The position numbers and the translations under genes are program-made. Under the pieces are notes generated by a model, which was given only the letters and a program-made list of their open reading frames with translations, was not told the DNA's origin and did not search any database. Below, one piece after another: positions 12,460 through 63,230 of a stretch of 64,000 nt of DNA. This DNA is from Erinaceus europaeus. Lineage: Eukaryota; Chordata; Mammalia; Eulipotyphla; Erinaceidae. The stretch lies in assembly GCF_950295315.1 (NCBI RefSeq), contig NC_080176.1, positions 30,697,669 to 30,761,668 of the forward strand, given 5' to 3'. The first letter of the stretch is position 1. Each line of letters starts with the position of its first letter.

Positions 12460-12816
12460 GGGGCTGAGCGGTAGCACAGTGGGTTAAGTGCACATGGTGC
12501 AAAACTCAAGGACTGTTGTGAGGATCCCGCTTCAAGCCCCCGGCTCCCCACCTGCAGGGGGGTCGCTTCACAAGCAGGGAAGCAGGTCTGCAGGTGTCTT
12601 TCTTTCTCTCCCCTTCTCTGTCTCCCCCTCCTCTCTTGATTTCTCTCTGCCCTATCCAACAACAACAACAGCAGTGGCAACAATAATAGTAAACTAACAA
12701 GGGCAACAGAAGGGAAAAAATAGCTTCCAAGAGCAGTGGATTCTTAGTGCAGGCACTTCTTCTTCTAGCGTTTGCCCAGTGCAGGCACTGAGCCCCAGCA
12801 ATAACTCTGGAGGCAA
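12460..12816 (+). mobile_element. tRNA-derived SINE, type A-long
   Basis: Plus-strand: head 'ggggctgagcggtagcacag', body 'ccccacctgcaggggggtcg', 'gccctatccaac', and extension 'gagcagtggattcttagtgc' to 'aataactctggaggc'. The extension is interrupted by a 20-base insertion with its own TSD (separate entry). The tail has grown into an (AAAG)n array. Confidence 0.9.
12746..12789 (-). mobile_element. 20-base micro-insertion of the Jockey/CR1-like 3' end
   Basis: The SINE sequence agtgcaggcact appears twice, at 12746-12757 and 12778-12789, around the insert tcttcttctagcgtttgccc (12758-12777). Undisturbed type A-long copies read straight through at this site. The insert is identical to the 3' terminus of the element at 40602-42064: the last codons, the TAG stop and the start of the (AAG)n tail. 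I infer a target-primed insertion that stopped after 20 bases. Confidence 0.9.
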
Positions 12817-40345: not shown

Positions 40346-40361
40346 AAATATTTCATTGCTG

Positions 40362-40601
40362 GGAGTTGGGCGGTAGCGCTGCGGGTTAAGCGTGGTGCAA
40401 AGCCCAAGGGCCAGCTTAAGGATCATGGTTCAAGCCATGATCACCCACCTCCCAGCTCCCCACCTGCAGGGGAGTTGCTTCACAAGTGGTGAAGCAGTTC
40501 TGCAAGTGTCTCTTTCTCTCCTCCTCTGTCTTACCCTCCTCTCTCCATTTCTCTCTGTCCTATCTAACAATGACAACATCAATAACAACAATAATAACTA
40601 C
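40362..40601 (+). mobile_element. tRNA-derived SINE, type A (outer, 5' part)
   Basis: Plus-strand: 'ggagttgggcggtagcgctg', 'gttgcttcacaagtggtgaa', 'caataacaacaataataact'. It is interrupted at 'actac' by the retrotransposon and resumes at 42065 ('actacaacaatt'). Confidence 0.92.
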
Positions 40602-42064
40602 TTCTTCTTCTAGCGTTTGCCCTTCTTCCGTAGCCAGTCAACAGCGTCAGGCTGAGCCTGATGTAAAGTTTCGAGACCTCCTTTGAATCTGGAGAGGTGG
40701 CAGTCGTTGACTATGTGGGTCATAGTCTGTCTGTAGCGGCAGGGGCAGTTTGGGTCGTCTCTGGCTCCCCAGCGATGGAACATAGCGGCGCACCGGCCAT
40801 GGCCTGTTCGATAGCGATTGAGGAGGGCCCAATCATAACGTGCTAGGTCAAAGCCAGGTTGATGCTTGCAGGGGTCTGTGATGAGGTGTTTGTTCTTTAC
40901 CTCAGCTGACTGCCAACTCTGTTTCCAAGAGTCTGGAACAGAGAAGTTCAGTGTAGGCGTAGGGGACCAGATTGGGTGACGAGACGTCAAGGGTGGGTGA
41001 AGATATCCGTGTATATTGGCAGGTCCGGTCGAGCGTAGACATGGGAAATGAACTTAGATGATGCCGCATCCCAACGAATATCTGGCAGGGCGATGTTGCT
41101 AAGAACTGGCAGCCATGGAACCGGGGTGGAACGGATGGTTCCAGAAATTATCCTCATGGAGGAATATAATTTGGAATCGACCAAGTGGACATGGGGGCTA
41201 CGGAACCATATTGGGGCACAGTATTCTGCAGTGGAATAGCATAATGCCAGGGATGATGATCATAGTGTGGAAGCGCTCGCACCCCATAAGGGGCTGGCCA
41301 GTCTTGCTGTTATTCCTTGATGTTATTCCTCGCGCCCACCTTTGCTGCAGTTTTTATGAGATGTTCGTGAAATGACAGAGTGCGATCGAGGGTAACGCCA
41401 AGACTGGCTGGGCTTCATGCCGGATTCTCGTATCGCCAAGCTGCACATTAAGCTCACGCGAGGCTGAGGCATGGTGTAGATGGAAAACAGATGATATCAT
41501 TTTTGCAGTGCTAGGGATTAGTCGTCATTTTTTACAGTAATCAGATATCAGAGACATGTCTTTCGTGAGTTTTTCCTCGAGGATGTCGAACTCTGATGCC
41601 TGAGTTGCACAGCAGATGTCATCGGCGTAGATGAACTTCCTTGAAGAAGTTTCTGGGAGGTCATTGATGTAAATATTAAATAGTGTAGGAGCCAGAACAG
41701 AGCCCTGGGGGAGGCCACTTGAGACAAGTCTCCATCTACTAGACTTTCACCCAGATGCACCCGGAATCTTCTGTTTTGGAGAAGAAACGATATAGTGTTG
41801 GCCACCCATGGAGGCAGGCATCTTGAGATCTTGACTAGGAGACCACGGTGCCAGACCGTGTCATAGGCTGCTGTGAGATCAACAAAGACAGCACCCTTCT
41901 TTAAATTCTTCTGGAATCCATTTTCAATGTAAGTTGAGAGGGCCAGGGCTTGTTCGCAGGTAGATCTTCCTGGGCTGAAACCAGCTTGGGCGGGTGATAG
42001 GAATTTATCTGTAAGATGAGAAATAAGTGAGAGAAGCAGCCTCTCAAGGAGTTTGTAACACACT
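40602..42064 (-). mobile_element. Jockey/CR1-group non-LTR retrotransposon, 5'-truncated copy 1
   Basis: Minus-strand fragment of a reverse-transcriptase ORF. Starting near 42060 the frame reads [10 protein letters not shown], then [36 protein letters not shown] and [11 protein letters not shown] one-base shift follows at about 41725, after which the catalytic region continues as [16 protein letters not shown], then [10 protein letters not shown] (41620-41645). The C-terminal part has WGARDDPNCPCRYRQ and MTHIVNDC, a Cys/His knuckle-like motif (40640-40800). The ORF ends KKGKR-stop and the (AAG)n tail starts at once, with no 3' UTR. TSD is short: actac. The GT-rich palm motifs and Y-A-D-D context fit the Jockey/CR1 side of non-LTR elements; they do not fit L1, whose motifs differ (see 62.3-62.6 kb). 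Frameshifts and stops make this copy dead. The exact clade is uncertain. Confidence 0.85.
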
Positions 42065-42084
42065 ACTACAACAATTAAAAAAAC

Positions 42085-42491
<407 letters not shown>

Positions 42492-42504
42492 ACAACAACA
42501 AGGG

Positions 42505-42788
42505 TGGGAGTCGAGCGGTAACGCAGCTGGTTAAGCACAGGTGGTGCAAAGCGCAAGGACTGGCATAAGGATCCTGGTTCGAGTCCCCGGCTCCCCACGT
42601 GCAGGGGAGTCGCTTCACAAGTGGTGAAGCAGGTCTGTAGGTGTCTTTCTCTCCCCCTCTCTGTCTTCCCCTCCCCTTTCCATTTGTCTGTCCTATCCAA
42701 CAACGTTGACATCAATAACAATAACAATAATAACTACAACAATAAAACAAGGGCAACAAAAGGGAATACACAAATATTTAAAAAACAG
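42505..42788 (+). mobile_element. tRNA-derived SINE, type A (third, nested)
   Basis: Plus-strand: 'gggagtcgagcggtaacgca', 'gggagtcgcttcacaagtgg', 'caacaataaaacaagggcaa', tail 'caaatatttaaaaaaca'. After it comes a second 'ggcaacaaaagggaaaacaa', probably the displaced tail of an outer SINE. Confidence 0.9.
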
Positions 42789-42835
42789 GCAACAAAAGGG
42801 AAAACAAATAAATATTTAAAAATATTTCATTGCTG

Positions 42836-58167: not shown

Positions 58168-58209
58168 AGAATACCAGTTCTTCTTCTAGCGTTTGCCCAG
58201 AATACCAGT
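58168..58209 (-). mobile_element. 20-base micro-insertion of the Jockey/CR1-like 3' end
   Basis: agaataccagt at 58168-58178 and 58199-58209 flanks tcttcttctagcgtttgccc (58179-58198). The insert is identical in sequence and length to the one at 12758-12777, yet the target is unrelated. It equals the 3' terminus of the element at 40602. Confidence 0.92.
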
Positions 58210-58509: not shown

Positions 58510-60485
58510 TATATTTATTTTATTTTTTATTTAAGAAAGGATAAATTAACAAAACCATAGGGTAGGAGGGGTACAACTCCACACAATTCCCACCCAATCT
58601 CCATATCCCACCCCCTCTCCTGATAGCTTTCCCATTCTCTATCCCTCTGGGAGCATGGACCCAGGGTCATTGTGGGTTGTAAAAGGTGGAAGGTCTGGCT
58701 TCTGTAATTGCTTCCCCGCTGAACATGGACGTTGACTGGTCGGTCCATTCTCCCAGTCTGCCTTTCTCTTTCCCTATTAGGGTGGGGCTCTGGGAAGCGG
58801 CGCTCCAGGACACATTGGTGGGGTCTTCAGTCCAGGGAAGCCTGGCTGGCATCCTGATGGCATCTGGAACCTGGTGACTGAAAAGAGAGTTAACATACAA
58901 AGCCAAACAAATTGTTGAGCAATAATGGACCCAAAGCTTGGAAAAGTGGAGAGGAAGTGTTAGGGAGTACTCACTGCAAACTCTAGTATGTTTCTGCTTT
59001 CAGGTATATATTTTGCAGTAATTTATGGATACATGTAAACATATGCTCTCTCTCACAGAAAGTGGTGTATATCTAGGTTTTGGGACTTTGTTAGAAAGTG
59101 AACTACCTGGGATGGGATTAGAGAATACTATGAAAGGAAAGGTCTCAGCTGAGTAATGAAGCTGAAGGGCTGTCATTCCACACGTGAAGGCTCTGGACAC
59201 AGTCTGAGGTGAAACATGTTGAGGTGGCAATTGTTGTGTTGATTAGGTTGTGATCGGCTCATGCAATATTATTTGATATGGATTGGGAGAGGCATACGGG
59301 AAAGTGGGCCCTATCCAAAGGTTCCAGGACTGGGGGAAGTAGAGGCTCTATAGTGGGGATGTGAGGTTCCTGCTGTCTTAGGGTTCAAAAAGACAATCGA
59401 TAGTTAATGTTATCATCAGATTATTTGTTAATTGGGTTAACTTTGAAAAGTCCTTTTGTTAGGGTTTGCTGTACAGTACCCAGTATCTTGTATATAGCTG
59501 TGCTATTGGTTGCTTCTGATCTACTTGGTCTAGGCTTTTAAGAGAGTTCGCATATCAAATACACAGCCTATATATTAAAAAGACTCTGTGTTTCAAAAAC
59601 TTCGAGACATACAATTAATTTTCCCCCTCTTGTATTAATTAACTAGTGATTTATATGACAACACTTTACTAGGAGTGTACATAAACACCATTCCCACCAA
59701 CAAAAGACTGTGACCCATCCCTCCCACCCACTCCCACCCCCCACTGTCCCAGGAAGCTGCATGTCTACTCCTCACCACAGAGTTTTTACTTTGGTGCCCT
59801 ACTTACAATTTGGTCAGGTCCTGCTTTTAGTTTCCCTTTCAGATCCTGTTAATGAGTGGGATCATCCCATACTCATCTTTATCTTTCTGACTTAACTTAC
59901 TTAACATAATTCCTTCTAGCTCTGTCCAAGATGGGTCAGAGAAGGTGGGTTCATTGTTCTTGATAGCTGCATAGTATTCCATTGTGTATATATACCACAG
60001 CTTTCTCAGCCACTCATCTGTTGTTGGGCACCTGGGTTGCTTCCAGGTTTTAGCTATTATGAATTGTGCTGCTATGAACATAGGAGTACACACCTCTTTT
60101 TGGTTGGGTGTTATGGAGTCCTTGGGGTATAACCCCAGGAGAGGAATTACTGGATCATATGGAAGGTCCATGTCTAGCCTTCTGAGAGTTCTCCAGACTG
60201 CTCTCCACAGTGGCTGGACCAATTTACATTCCCACCAGCAGTGTAAAAGGGTTCCTCTGTCCCCACAACCTCTCCAGCATTTGTTGCTGCTGTCCTTTTT
60301 GATGTATGCCATTCTTACAGGAGTGAGGTGGTATCTCAATGTTGTCTTAATTTGCATTTCTCTGACAATCAGTGACCTAGAGCAGTTTTTCATATGTTTG
60401 TTAGCCTTTTGGATCTCCTCTGAGGTGAATGTTTTGTTCATATCCTCTGCCCATTTTTGGATGGGGTCATTTGCTTTTTTGGTGC
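58510..60485 (-). mobile_element. young L1: 3' UTR and ORF2 C-terminus
   Basis: Minus-strand. 58545-59840 is the long L1 3' UTR. The open frame 59839-60525 holds the end of ORF2: '[17 protein letters not shown]', the Cys/His motif C83-x3-C87-x7-H95-x4-C100, '[16 protein letters not shown]', '[17 protein letters not shown]' and '[12 protein letters not shown]'. The first ~17 residues of that frame come from the inserted foreign element and not from L1. ORF2 is the L1 endonuclease/reverse transcriptase; this C-terminal domain binds nucleic acid. The element continues on the far side of the insertion at 61319. Confidence 0.95.
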
Positions 60486-61318
60486 TTCTTCTTCTAGCAT
60501 TTGGCCTTCTTCTGTAGCCAGTCAACAGCGTCAGGATGAGCCTAAATTAAAGTTTCGAGACCTCCTTTGAATCTGGAGAGGTGGCAGTCGTTGACTATGT
60601 GGGTCATAGTCTGTCTGTAGCCGCAGGGGCAGTTCGGGTCGTCTCTGGCTCCCCAGCGATGGAACATAGCGGCGCACCGGCCATGGCCTGTTCGATAGCG
60701 ATTGAGGAGGGCCCAATCATAACGTGCTAGGTCAAAGCCAGATTGACGCTTGCAGGGGTCTGTGATGAGGTGTTTGTTCTTTACCTCAGCTGACTGCCAA
60801 CTCTGTTTCCAAGAGTCTGGAACAGAGAAGTTCAGTGTAGGCGTAGGGGACCAGATTGGGTGACGAGACGTCAAGCGTTGGACAGGGTGGGTGAAGATAT
60901 CCGCGTATATTGGCAGGTCTGGTCGAGCGTAGACGTGGGAAATGAACTTAGATGATGCCGCATCCCGACGAATATCTGGCGGGGCGATGTTGCTAAGAAC
61001 TGGCAGCCATGGAACCGGGGTGGAACGGATGGTTCCAGAAATTATCCTCATGGAGGAATATAATTTGGAATCGACCAAGTGGACATGGGGGCTACGGAAC
61101 CATACTGGGGCACAGTATTCTGCAGTGGAATAGCATAATGCCAGAGATGATGATCGTAGTGTGGAAGCGCTTGCGCCCCATGAGGAGCTGGCCAGTCTTG
61201 CAATGATGTTATTTCTCGCACCCACCTTTGCTGCAGTTTTTATGAGATGTTCGTGAAATGACAGAGTGCGATTGAGAGTAACACCAAGATAGACTGGCTG
61301 GGCTTCGTGCTAAGTTTG
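60486..61318 (-). mobile_element. Jockey/CR1-group non-LTR retrotransposon, 5'-truncated copy 2
   Basis: Minus-strand, 3' end at 60486 with an (AAG)n tail immediately after the stop codon. The open frame 60542-61225 covers the post-catalytic part: 'GARNNIIARLASSSWGASAS', 'CYSTAEYCAPVWFRSPHVHL', 'VPWLPVLSNIAPPDIRRDAA', 'YDWALLNRYRTGHGRCAAMF', 'WGARDDPNCPCGYRQTMTHI'. The last part has the C-x-C...H-x4-C knuckle-like pattern. It lies inside L1 ORF2, with a short TSD (gtgct), and both L1 halves join cleanly when it is removed. Against copy 1 I count about 14 substitutions and one 10-base gap in the first ~530 bases, many at CpG. Confidence 0.88.
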
Positions 61319-63230
61319 CTGAGCTCTTTATATATTTTGGTGATTAGTTTCTTGTCTGATGTCTGGCATGTGAAGATCTTCTCCCATTCTGTGAGGGGTC
61401 TCTCTGTTTAATAGTTTCTTTGGATGTGCAGAAGCTTTTCAATTTGATGTAGTCCCATTGGTTTGTTTCTGCTTTAGTCTTCCTTGCAATTGGGTTTGAT
61501 TCATCAAAGATGTCCTTGAGGTGTAGGTGGGAAACTGTTTTACCAATGTTTTCCTCTAAGTATTTGATTGTTTCTGGTCTCACATCTAGGTGTTTGATCC
61601 ATTTGGAGTTGATTTTTGTTTCTGGTGAGATAAAGTGGTTCAATTTCATTCTTCTGCATGTTACAACCCAGTTTTCCCAGCACCATTTATTGAAGAGAGC
61701 CTCCTTCTTCCATTTAATGCTTTGGGCCCCCTTATCAAAGATTAGGTGCCCATAGGTGTGGGGATTTATTTCTGGGCTTTCAATTATGTTCCACTGGTCT
61801 TTGTGCCTATTTTTGTTCCAGTACCATGCTGTTTTGATGATGATGGCTTTATAATATAGTTTAAGGTCTGGGAGTGTGATGCCTCCATTTCTGTTTCTTT
61901 TCCTCAAGATGGTTTTGGCAATTCTAGGTGTTTTCTGGTTCCAGATAAATGATTGTAGTGTTTGTTCTATTCTCTTAAAGAAGCTTGGTGGAACCTTGAT
62001 GGGTTTTGCATTAAATTTGTATATGGCTCTGGGGAGAATATTCATTTTGATGATATTTATTCTTCCAATCCATGAGCATGGGATATCTTTCCATTTCTTG
62101 GTATCTGTTTCTATTTCCTTGAGTAGCGACTCATAGTTTTCAGTATACAAGTCTTTCACTTCTTTGGTCAACTTTATTCCAGGTATTTGATTGATTTTGC
62201 TGAAACAGTAAATGGGAGTGATTTCTGGATGTCTTCTTCTTCAGATTTAGTGTTTACATAAAGAAATGCCACTGATTTTTGTACATTGATTTTGTAGCCT
62301 GATACCTTGCTATTGCCTAATAACTTCCAGTAGTTTTCTGCTGGATTCTTTAGGTTTTTCTATGTATACTATCATATCATCTGTAAATAGTGAGAGCTTG
62401 ATTTCTTCCTTTCCAATCTGTATTCCTCTGATTTCTTTCTCTTGCCTGATTGACATGGCAAGAACTTCCAATACTATGTTGAAGAGTAGTGGTGACAGTG
62501 GACATCCCTGTCTAGTCCCTGATCTGAGGGGGAATGATTTGAGCTTCTGTCCATTGAGTATGATTTTGGCTGTAGGTTTGCTATATATAGACTCCACTAT
62601 CTTGAGGATACTAACTGTACTAACAGTACTAACTGTTTCCTGAAAGTTTTGTAGAATTCGTTTGTGAAGACATCTGGTCCAGGACTTTTGTTGTTGGGGA
62701 GATTCTTAGTAACGGTTTCAATTTCTTTGTCTGTGATTGGTGCATTTAGATTTTGTAGTTCTTCTTGGTTCAGTTTTGGAAGGGCATATGTTTCTAGGAA
62801 TTGTTCCAATTATTCCAGATTCTCTAGCGTGGTGGCGTATAGTTCTTCATAGAAGTTTTGCCTGATTCTCTGGATTTCTGTGGTGTCATTTGTGATATCT
62901 CCTCCATCGTTTACAATTCTATTAATTTGAATCTTCTCTCTTTTTTGTTTGGTGAGTCTGGCTAGGGGTTTGTCAATTTTGATTAATCTTTCAAAGAACC
63001 AACATTCAGCTTCACTGATCTTTTGTATGTTTTCGATGTTGTTTATTTCTGCTCTAATTTTAGTGATTTCTGTCCTTCTGGTTGCTTTAGGGTTCCTTTG
63101 TTCCTCTTCCTCTAAGTCCTTGAGGTGTGCAGTAAGGTCGTTCATCTGAGCTTTTTCTTGTTGTTTAATATGTGATTATATGGCTATAAGTTTCCCTCTC
63201 AGTACTGCTTTAGTTGTGTCCCAATGTTAT
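61319..63230 (-). mobile_element. young L1: ORF2 reverse transcriptase region, decayed
   Basis: Minus-strand continuation of the 58510 element. Segments in order from the 5' side: 62810-63145 (endonuclease-RT linker, 'KDLEEEEQRNPKATRRTEIT'), 62597-62809 ('[20 protein letters not shown]'), 62310-62597 ('[20 protein letters not shown]', '[13 protein letters not shown]'), 61344-62171 ('[20 protein letters not shown]' to 'FNKWCWENW'). Several hundred bases of RT are missing at about 62600-62650, and the catalytic F-A-D-D reads F-T-D-D. ORF1 and the endonuclease are absent, so it is 5'-truncated. Confidence 0.93.

Follow-up and report, generated by a model that had tools for sequence, protein, structure and literature searches.

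A young Vingi-like LINE family of the hedgehog Erinaceus europaeus and its 20-bp micro-insertions

LINE copies in the window

The DNA analysed here is a stretch of 64,000 nucleotides from the hedgehog Erinaceus europaeus, referred to below as the window. It contains four copies of one LINE: two large copies, numbered 1 and 2, and two inserts of 20 bp that consist of the 3′ tip of the element alone. The relevant features are as follows.

40602–42064, minus strand: copy 1, a 5′-truncated, frame-broken Vingi-like LINE with RT, C-terminal part and the 3′ end TAG(AAG)n
41722–42003, minus strand: upstream RT fragment of copy 1 (FLSPAQAGF...), Pfam RVT_1 match with E = 2.1e-7
41525–41746, minus strand: open stretch of copy 1 with a 14-residue RT motif and FIYADD (the RT catalytic motifs), Pfam RVT_1 match with E = 3e-9
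40610–41053, minus strand: C-terminal domain of copy 1, an open reading frame with CPC...HIVNDC...KKGKR-stop
40360–42087, plus strand: SINE, presumably of the tRNA type, that hosts copy 1 in its tail (40360–40601, with the tail again at 42064–42087 by eye)
60486–61310, minus strand: copy 2, a shorter copy of the same element inside L1 ORF2 (93.6% identity over 833 bp)
59842–62240, minus strand: L1 ORF2 split by copy 2 (fragments 59842–60480 and 61347–62240, both with matches to L1 ORF2 in PDB)
12758–12777, minus strand: micro-insertion of 20 bp, the 3′ tip of the element alone, with the 12-bp target site duplication AGTGCAGGCACT (12746–12757 and 12778–12789)
58179–58198, minus strand: micro-insertion of 20 bp with the same breakpoint and the 11-bp target site duplication AGAATACCAGT (58168–58178 and 58199–58209)

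Copy 1 is a dead element of an APE-type LINE. Its RT is recognizable in two fragments, and since RVT_1 matches both of them (2.1e-7 and 3e-9), the RT motifs are not a chance resemblance. The C-terminal domain (40610–41053) gave no match in a Pfam search; the stop codon, TAG, falls at the extreme 3′ end of the element. The reading frame is broken by four indels (−1, −4, −10 and +8), and these are private to copy 1 in an alignment with three other copies and, over its overlap, with copy 2. Thus, the window copy decayed independently, as dead-on-arrival LINE insertions should. In composition the copy has a GC content of 49.5% vs. 40.0% for the window and an observed/expected CpG ratio of 0.61 vs. 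0.16, and each of the top 13 sliding windows ranked by CpG ratio overlaps copy 1 or copy 2. A previous sequence-only reading of this DNA had reported the RT motifs and the CPC...HIVNDC motif, and had described the element as CpG-rich and GC-richer than its host; both motifs are indeed where it placed them on the minus strand (41525–41746 and 40610–41053), and the figures just given agree with its description.

Copy 2 lies within an L1 ORF2, and its two flanks match residues 761–1026 and 1063–1272 of L1 ORF2 in PDB (E about 1e-103 and 1e-92, respectively). Because copy 2 splits this L1 ORF2 gene, the element resides in host DNA and contamination is ruled out. These genuine L1 fragments also serve as a measure of how far the element stands from L1. 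The best L1 chain aligns with its RT across roughly 220 residues at no more than E about 1e-9, and the RT motifs of the two differ, so that the earlier statement that this RT is unlike that of L1 stands. The same reading had noted L1 motifs "a few kb" away; exact matches to them do exist, but solely at 62,387–62,519 (minus strand), about 20 kb from copy 1. Both L1 and the element are APE-type LINEs with 5′-truncated copies. L1 copies, which arise by target-primed insertion, finish with a UTR and then poly(A), whereas the element ends in TAG(AAG)n.

Copy 1 is bounded by a short GTAGT duplication, and the target duplications of the two large window copies are only 3–5 bp long (both judged by eye). 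The surroundings are rich in SINEs: one SINE family has 30 matches across the 64-kb window, on both strands, some of them nested or chained. A 15-bp direct repeat, AAATATTTCATTGCT, occurs at 40346 and again at 42820 (span 40346–42834) and brackets copy 1 together with three SINEs and a (TATATG)n array of 148 bp; this region looks like a set of nested or chained SINE insertions. The hexamer array itself (42344–42491) comprises 24.7 copies with a 100% match and is flanked by two SINEs.

Anatomy, identity and origin of the family

Near-full-length copies elsewhere in the genome measure about 3.1 kb. One of them, L041, matches over 3,046 bp and has a 14-bp repeat at its ends, and L032 is another; both are near full length yet frame-broken. 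A 709-aa open frame in L031 matches RVT_1 (E = 1.7e-32), and a 179-aa piece of L032 matches Exo_endo_phos (E = 1.6e-11). The family therefore has the AP-type endonuclease and the RT that mark the Vingi clade, the two domains being seen in separate copies. Among the listed protein relatives, many that measure about 1000 aa combine PF03372, PF14529 and PF00078, and by analogy with these full-length relatives the endonuclease and RT of the hedgehog element probably lie in one protein. Pfam found no RNase H in the 709-aa frame of L031, which extends to the stop, and PF00075 occurs in none of the 120 listed homologues (the best 120 of 1,756, according to their precomputed Pfam lists). One listed relative, P0054, has PF17917, which we take to be an RNase-H-type domain, within a fusion to another element. 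Vingi elements have APE and RT and, unlike Ingi, no RNase H.

At the 3′ end, TAGAAG directly follows the last codon in 43 of 45 loci (the exceptions are L012 and L043). A loose automatic search found a repeat of 8–14 bp at both ends in 24 of the 45, a count that includes L001, judged spurious, and L045, which duplicates L017, and that was made with some 5′ ends lying beyond the sequence examined.

The family is both large and young. In the 2.72-Gb assembly the 18-base 3′-end sequence of the element has 26,976 exact matches (13,482 + 13,494) and the reversed control 0. A protein search of the same assembly gave 39,163 first-look candidates, and the 150 that were scored are 97–100% identical to the query. 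For an estimate of divergence, copies were taken from the 18-base matches by genome position and not by score. Among 30 such positional copies 21 were long enough, and over about 300 bp these differ from the majority by a median of 2.3% (1.9% outside CpG, range 0.7–3.0%), in a sample that the exact 18-base pattern biases against old copies. A second set of 43 copies is tighter, with a median pairwise difference of 0.9% outside CpG, as would be expected of a set whose members were mostly chosen by score. With a rate of 6e-9 per generation and a generation time of 3 years, the gymnure values given in the accessible text of PMC13052205, a divergence of 2.3% would correspond to an age on the order of 10 million years. 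The similarity of the copies and the youth of the family had been proposed from the sequence alone; the median of 2.3% among the 21 genomic copies bears this out.

A wider sample, made up of 80 of the first 100 listed 18-base matches (L050–L079 and L100–L149), contains at least 17 internal-deletion derivatives, sorted by eye, in which a 5′ region runs straight into the final tens of bases. One junction is common to eight or more of the derivatives, and this indicates at least one abundant non-autonomous family.

Copy 1, itself dead, belongs to a young family of non-LTR retrotransposons, which is very probably the hedgehog Vingi-1; identity with Vingi-1_EE is very probable on the basis of host, structure and literature, as distinct from a sequence match. 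The likeness to Vingi-1_EE and Vingi-1N, drawn by description and not by sequence, extends to the host group, the young expansion, the status of an extra non-L1 LINE, the internal-deletion derivatives, and the combination of APE and RT without RNase H. Vingi-1N families arise by internal deletion. The sequence-only reading had assigned the LINE to the Jockey/CR1 group, a label that the literature does not support: Kojima, Kapitonov and Jurka (2011), as cited in the accessible text of PMC3183009, PMC3747384, PMC5753468 and PMC3391268, placed the extra LINE of the hedgehog in Vingi, a clade related to Ingi. The LINE itself is therefore very probably the family known under that name and not a new Jockey/CR1 arrival, and PMC3183009, in its accessible text, also names Vingi-1N3_EE.

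Two reports on related animals are informative here. In the African hedgehog, the accessible text of PMC12026660 gives 4,476 I-Jockey copies (2.2 Mb), far fewer than the 26,976 3′ ends counted here, and does not contain the word Vingi; its broader class name probably covers the same family. The common shrew offers a parallel in RTE1_Sar, likewise a eulipotyphlan LINE ascribed to horizontal transfer, in its case from nematodes, which differs in that it belongs to the RTE clade and is reported to be absent from hedgehog reads (PMC6542046, accessible text).

A search of 5.8 billion proteins gave 1,756 matches, of which the best 120 were considered. The top match, P0001, is 96% identical to the element, lies on an ENA contig of 2,072 bp and is probably hedgehog material; the other 119 listed relatives show at most 60% identity. 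Those of the 120 that bear organism names come from Phlebotomus, Cordylochernes and Uroleucon, all arthropods, at 42–45% identity. In a careful 40-row tree three unnamed sequences join the element and P0001 in one group (support 99/97), with a path length near 1 change per column, inside a 28-row group from which the named arthropods are set apart by a 100/100 split, and a quick 95-row tree is concordant. Both trees are unrooted, and with mostly unnamed relatives in them they give no clade names. GTDB contigs contributed four distant loci (26–30% identity) and the viral contigs searched contributed no relatives; no close donor was found among the 120 listed relatives, the GTDB contigs or the viral contigs.

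Horizontal transfer of the hedgehog Vingi is the published view: the accessible text of PMC3183009 treats it as likely. Alternatively, the family may have been inherited vertically, an ancient LINE of vertebrates that persisted in hedgehogs, where it expanded anew, and became extinct in other mammals. Vertical survival keeps some probability because there are Vingi relics in human: the accessible text of PMC5753468 states that human keeps X12_LINE, classed as Vingi, and that Vingi is present in reptiles too, and that of PMC9004415 describes one pre-amniote Vingi fossil in human. It is also in line with the lack of any close non-hedgehog relative among the 120 listed. We nevertheless consider it rather unlikely, given the preference of PMC3183009, in its accessible text, for transfer and the single tight, young cluster that the 21 positional copies form (0.7–3.0% outside CpG), although the exact 18-base filter disfavours old copies.

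Transfer of a Vingi element, the published reading, is not the same as the event that had been proposed from the sequence alone, namely the recent transfer of an undescribed Jockey/CR1-group LINE, perhaps from an invertebrate or through a parasite. The named arthropod proteins at 42–45% identity would fit such an arrival, as would a family that is CpG-rich, young and very large. We think it very improbable, because a non-L1 LINE of this host has already been published as Vingi (in the accessible text of the papers above), the three named arthropods are excluded from the 28-row group of the element (100/100), and above 60% identity the 120 listed relatives include only P0001, itself probably hedgehog. 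Least credible of all is an SVA-like composite (SINE plus antisense LINE) of which the window copies would be part and which would be mobile as a unit; it was first suggested by the orientation and by the outer 15-bp repeat (40346 and 42820) that encloses three SINEs and a LINE copy, and we rejected it because the flanks of the 80 sampled copies varied, copies elsewhere sharing the 3′ tip but mostly not this SINE beside it, and because copy 2 is located in L1 and copy 1 breaks a SINE tail that continues beyond it (by eye).

Micro-insertions ending at GGG

Both 20-bp inserts of the window consist of the last bases of the element, GGGCAAACGCTAG, followed by the AAG tail, and both are flanked by perfect duplications. 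They end at one and the same template position, immediately before GGG. Genome-wide, 125 sites at this breakpoint pass a strict filter, which requires the exact 3′ end and then six bases, none of them continuing the element; the reversed control gave 0. The breakpoint control covers one neighbouring position, 3 bp further, where an equally strict filter passed 9 sites, at least three of which, judged by eye, seem to be copies running on past a small indel. With random flanks 18% of sites would pass the filter, so the 125 stand for about 700 (about 2.5–2.6% of the 26,976).

Twenty sites were fetched from the first 21 of the 125, and in 18 of them a target duplication marks the breakpoint; one of the two exceptions is an internal-deletion copy and the other lies inside a long TTC run. 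The common GGG end of the fetched sites follows from how they were selected. When L107 and the two window inserts are added, target duplications of 10–13 bp are found in 21 of 23 cases; two of these duplications contain a single mismatch, and a few are separated from GGG by 1–2 additional bases. A control with swapped flanks, taken from different loci, showed duplications in 2 of 506. The inserts are 18–25 bp in size, mostly 20 or 23, with tails of variable length. At 19 of the 21 sites the primer strand ends in T, and at 17 this end is followed by GA or AA, which is consistent with a nick made by an AP-type endonuclease.

The positional sample of 80 copies bears on how often this happens. Two of the 80 stop at GGG (L107, and L116, which is the same as L080), none in the first 30 and both in the next 50, in rough agreement with the extrapolated value of about 2.5%. 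One could ask whether random 5′ truncation of the ordinary kind produced the 20-bp scars, which would then have been noticed just because there were two of them in the window. Other short truncations do exist, in that 8 of the 80 copies break 8–94 bp beyond GGG, and the first 30 copies are without a scar. Those eight breaks, however, fall at eight different positions and would predict about 0.085 stops per position, against the two seen exactly at GGG, and the 125 filtered sites stand against 9 at the breakpoint 3 bp further. Random truncation is accordingly improbable as an account of the scars. The presence of two micro-insertions among the four copies of the window is above the genome-wide rate, for which we have no explanation beyond chance.

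An RNA hairpin as the cause of a fixed stop was considered and rejected, folding of the RNA around the stop having given it no support (z-scores 1.06, −0.58 and −1.31). In the literature we found no title on very short LINE insertions, which is a weak result since most subscription journals lie outside the coverage, and in the Vingi papers cited for Vingi-1_EE (PMC3183009, PMC3747384, PMC5753468 and PMC3391268) the accessible text does not mention fixed 20-bp insertions. Micro-insertions with a fixed breakpoint may be new, and we do not claim that they are unreported.

Possible mechanism and significance

The following course of events would fit the observations. The full-length element, about 3.1 kb long, would supply an AP-type endonuclease and an RT without RNase H, and its RNA would terminate with the stop codon and an (AAG)n tail. 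The endonuclease would nick the target after a T, mostly ahead of GA or AA, and the RT would prime at the nick and copy the RNA from its tail, by target-primed reverse transcription. The resulting copies would often be 5′ truncated, with target duplications of about 8–14 bp, and autonomous copies would have driven the burst. A minority, about 2.5%, would halt at a single template position and leave the 20-bp scars, most likely because the template RNA is broken at GGG or because the RT meets a fixed stop there. With a broken template, the 5′ end of the RNA would fall at GGGCAAACG.

The stop seems to be fixed by the template. The inserts have the same end with tails of differing length, which argues that it is the template and not the copied length that sets the stop, and a template-fixed stop in turn favours a template whose end was brought to GGG by cleavage or processing, or else a sequence-specific RT stop, over random loss of the RT. 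We regard as evenly poised the fuller proposal that the micro-insertions of Vingi form a class of their own, some 700 independent, target-primed events that stop 20 bases from the tail, by way of a short processed RNA whose 5′ end is defined or of a checkpoint built into the RT right after priming.

Mammals do not usually carry a young non-L1 LINE in such large numbers, and the hedgehog Vingi is a published case. This LINE is very probably already known (published in 2011, according to the accessible text of the citing papers), and its horizontal origin has been called likely in print; the part that may be new is the 20-bp scars, hundreds of which, nearly identical, the element seems to leave in this genome, the one unexpected finding here. 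If this is true, the LINE machinery leaves many clean 20-bp insertions with target duplications, too short for the usual repeat annotation, and insertion counts drawn from such annotation probably overlook one class of mutation. Fixed-breakpoint micro-insertions would matter more than the family itself, as a natural record of the commonest failure point in target-primed synthesis, and they would open the early steps of LINE insertion to testing.
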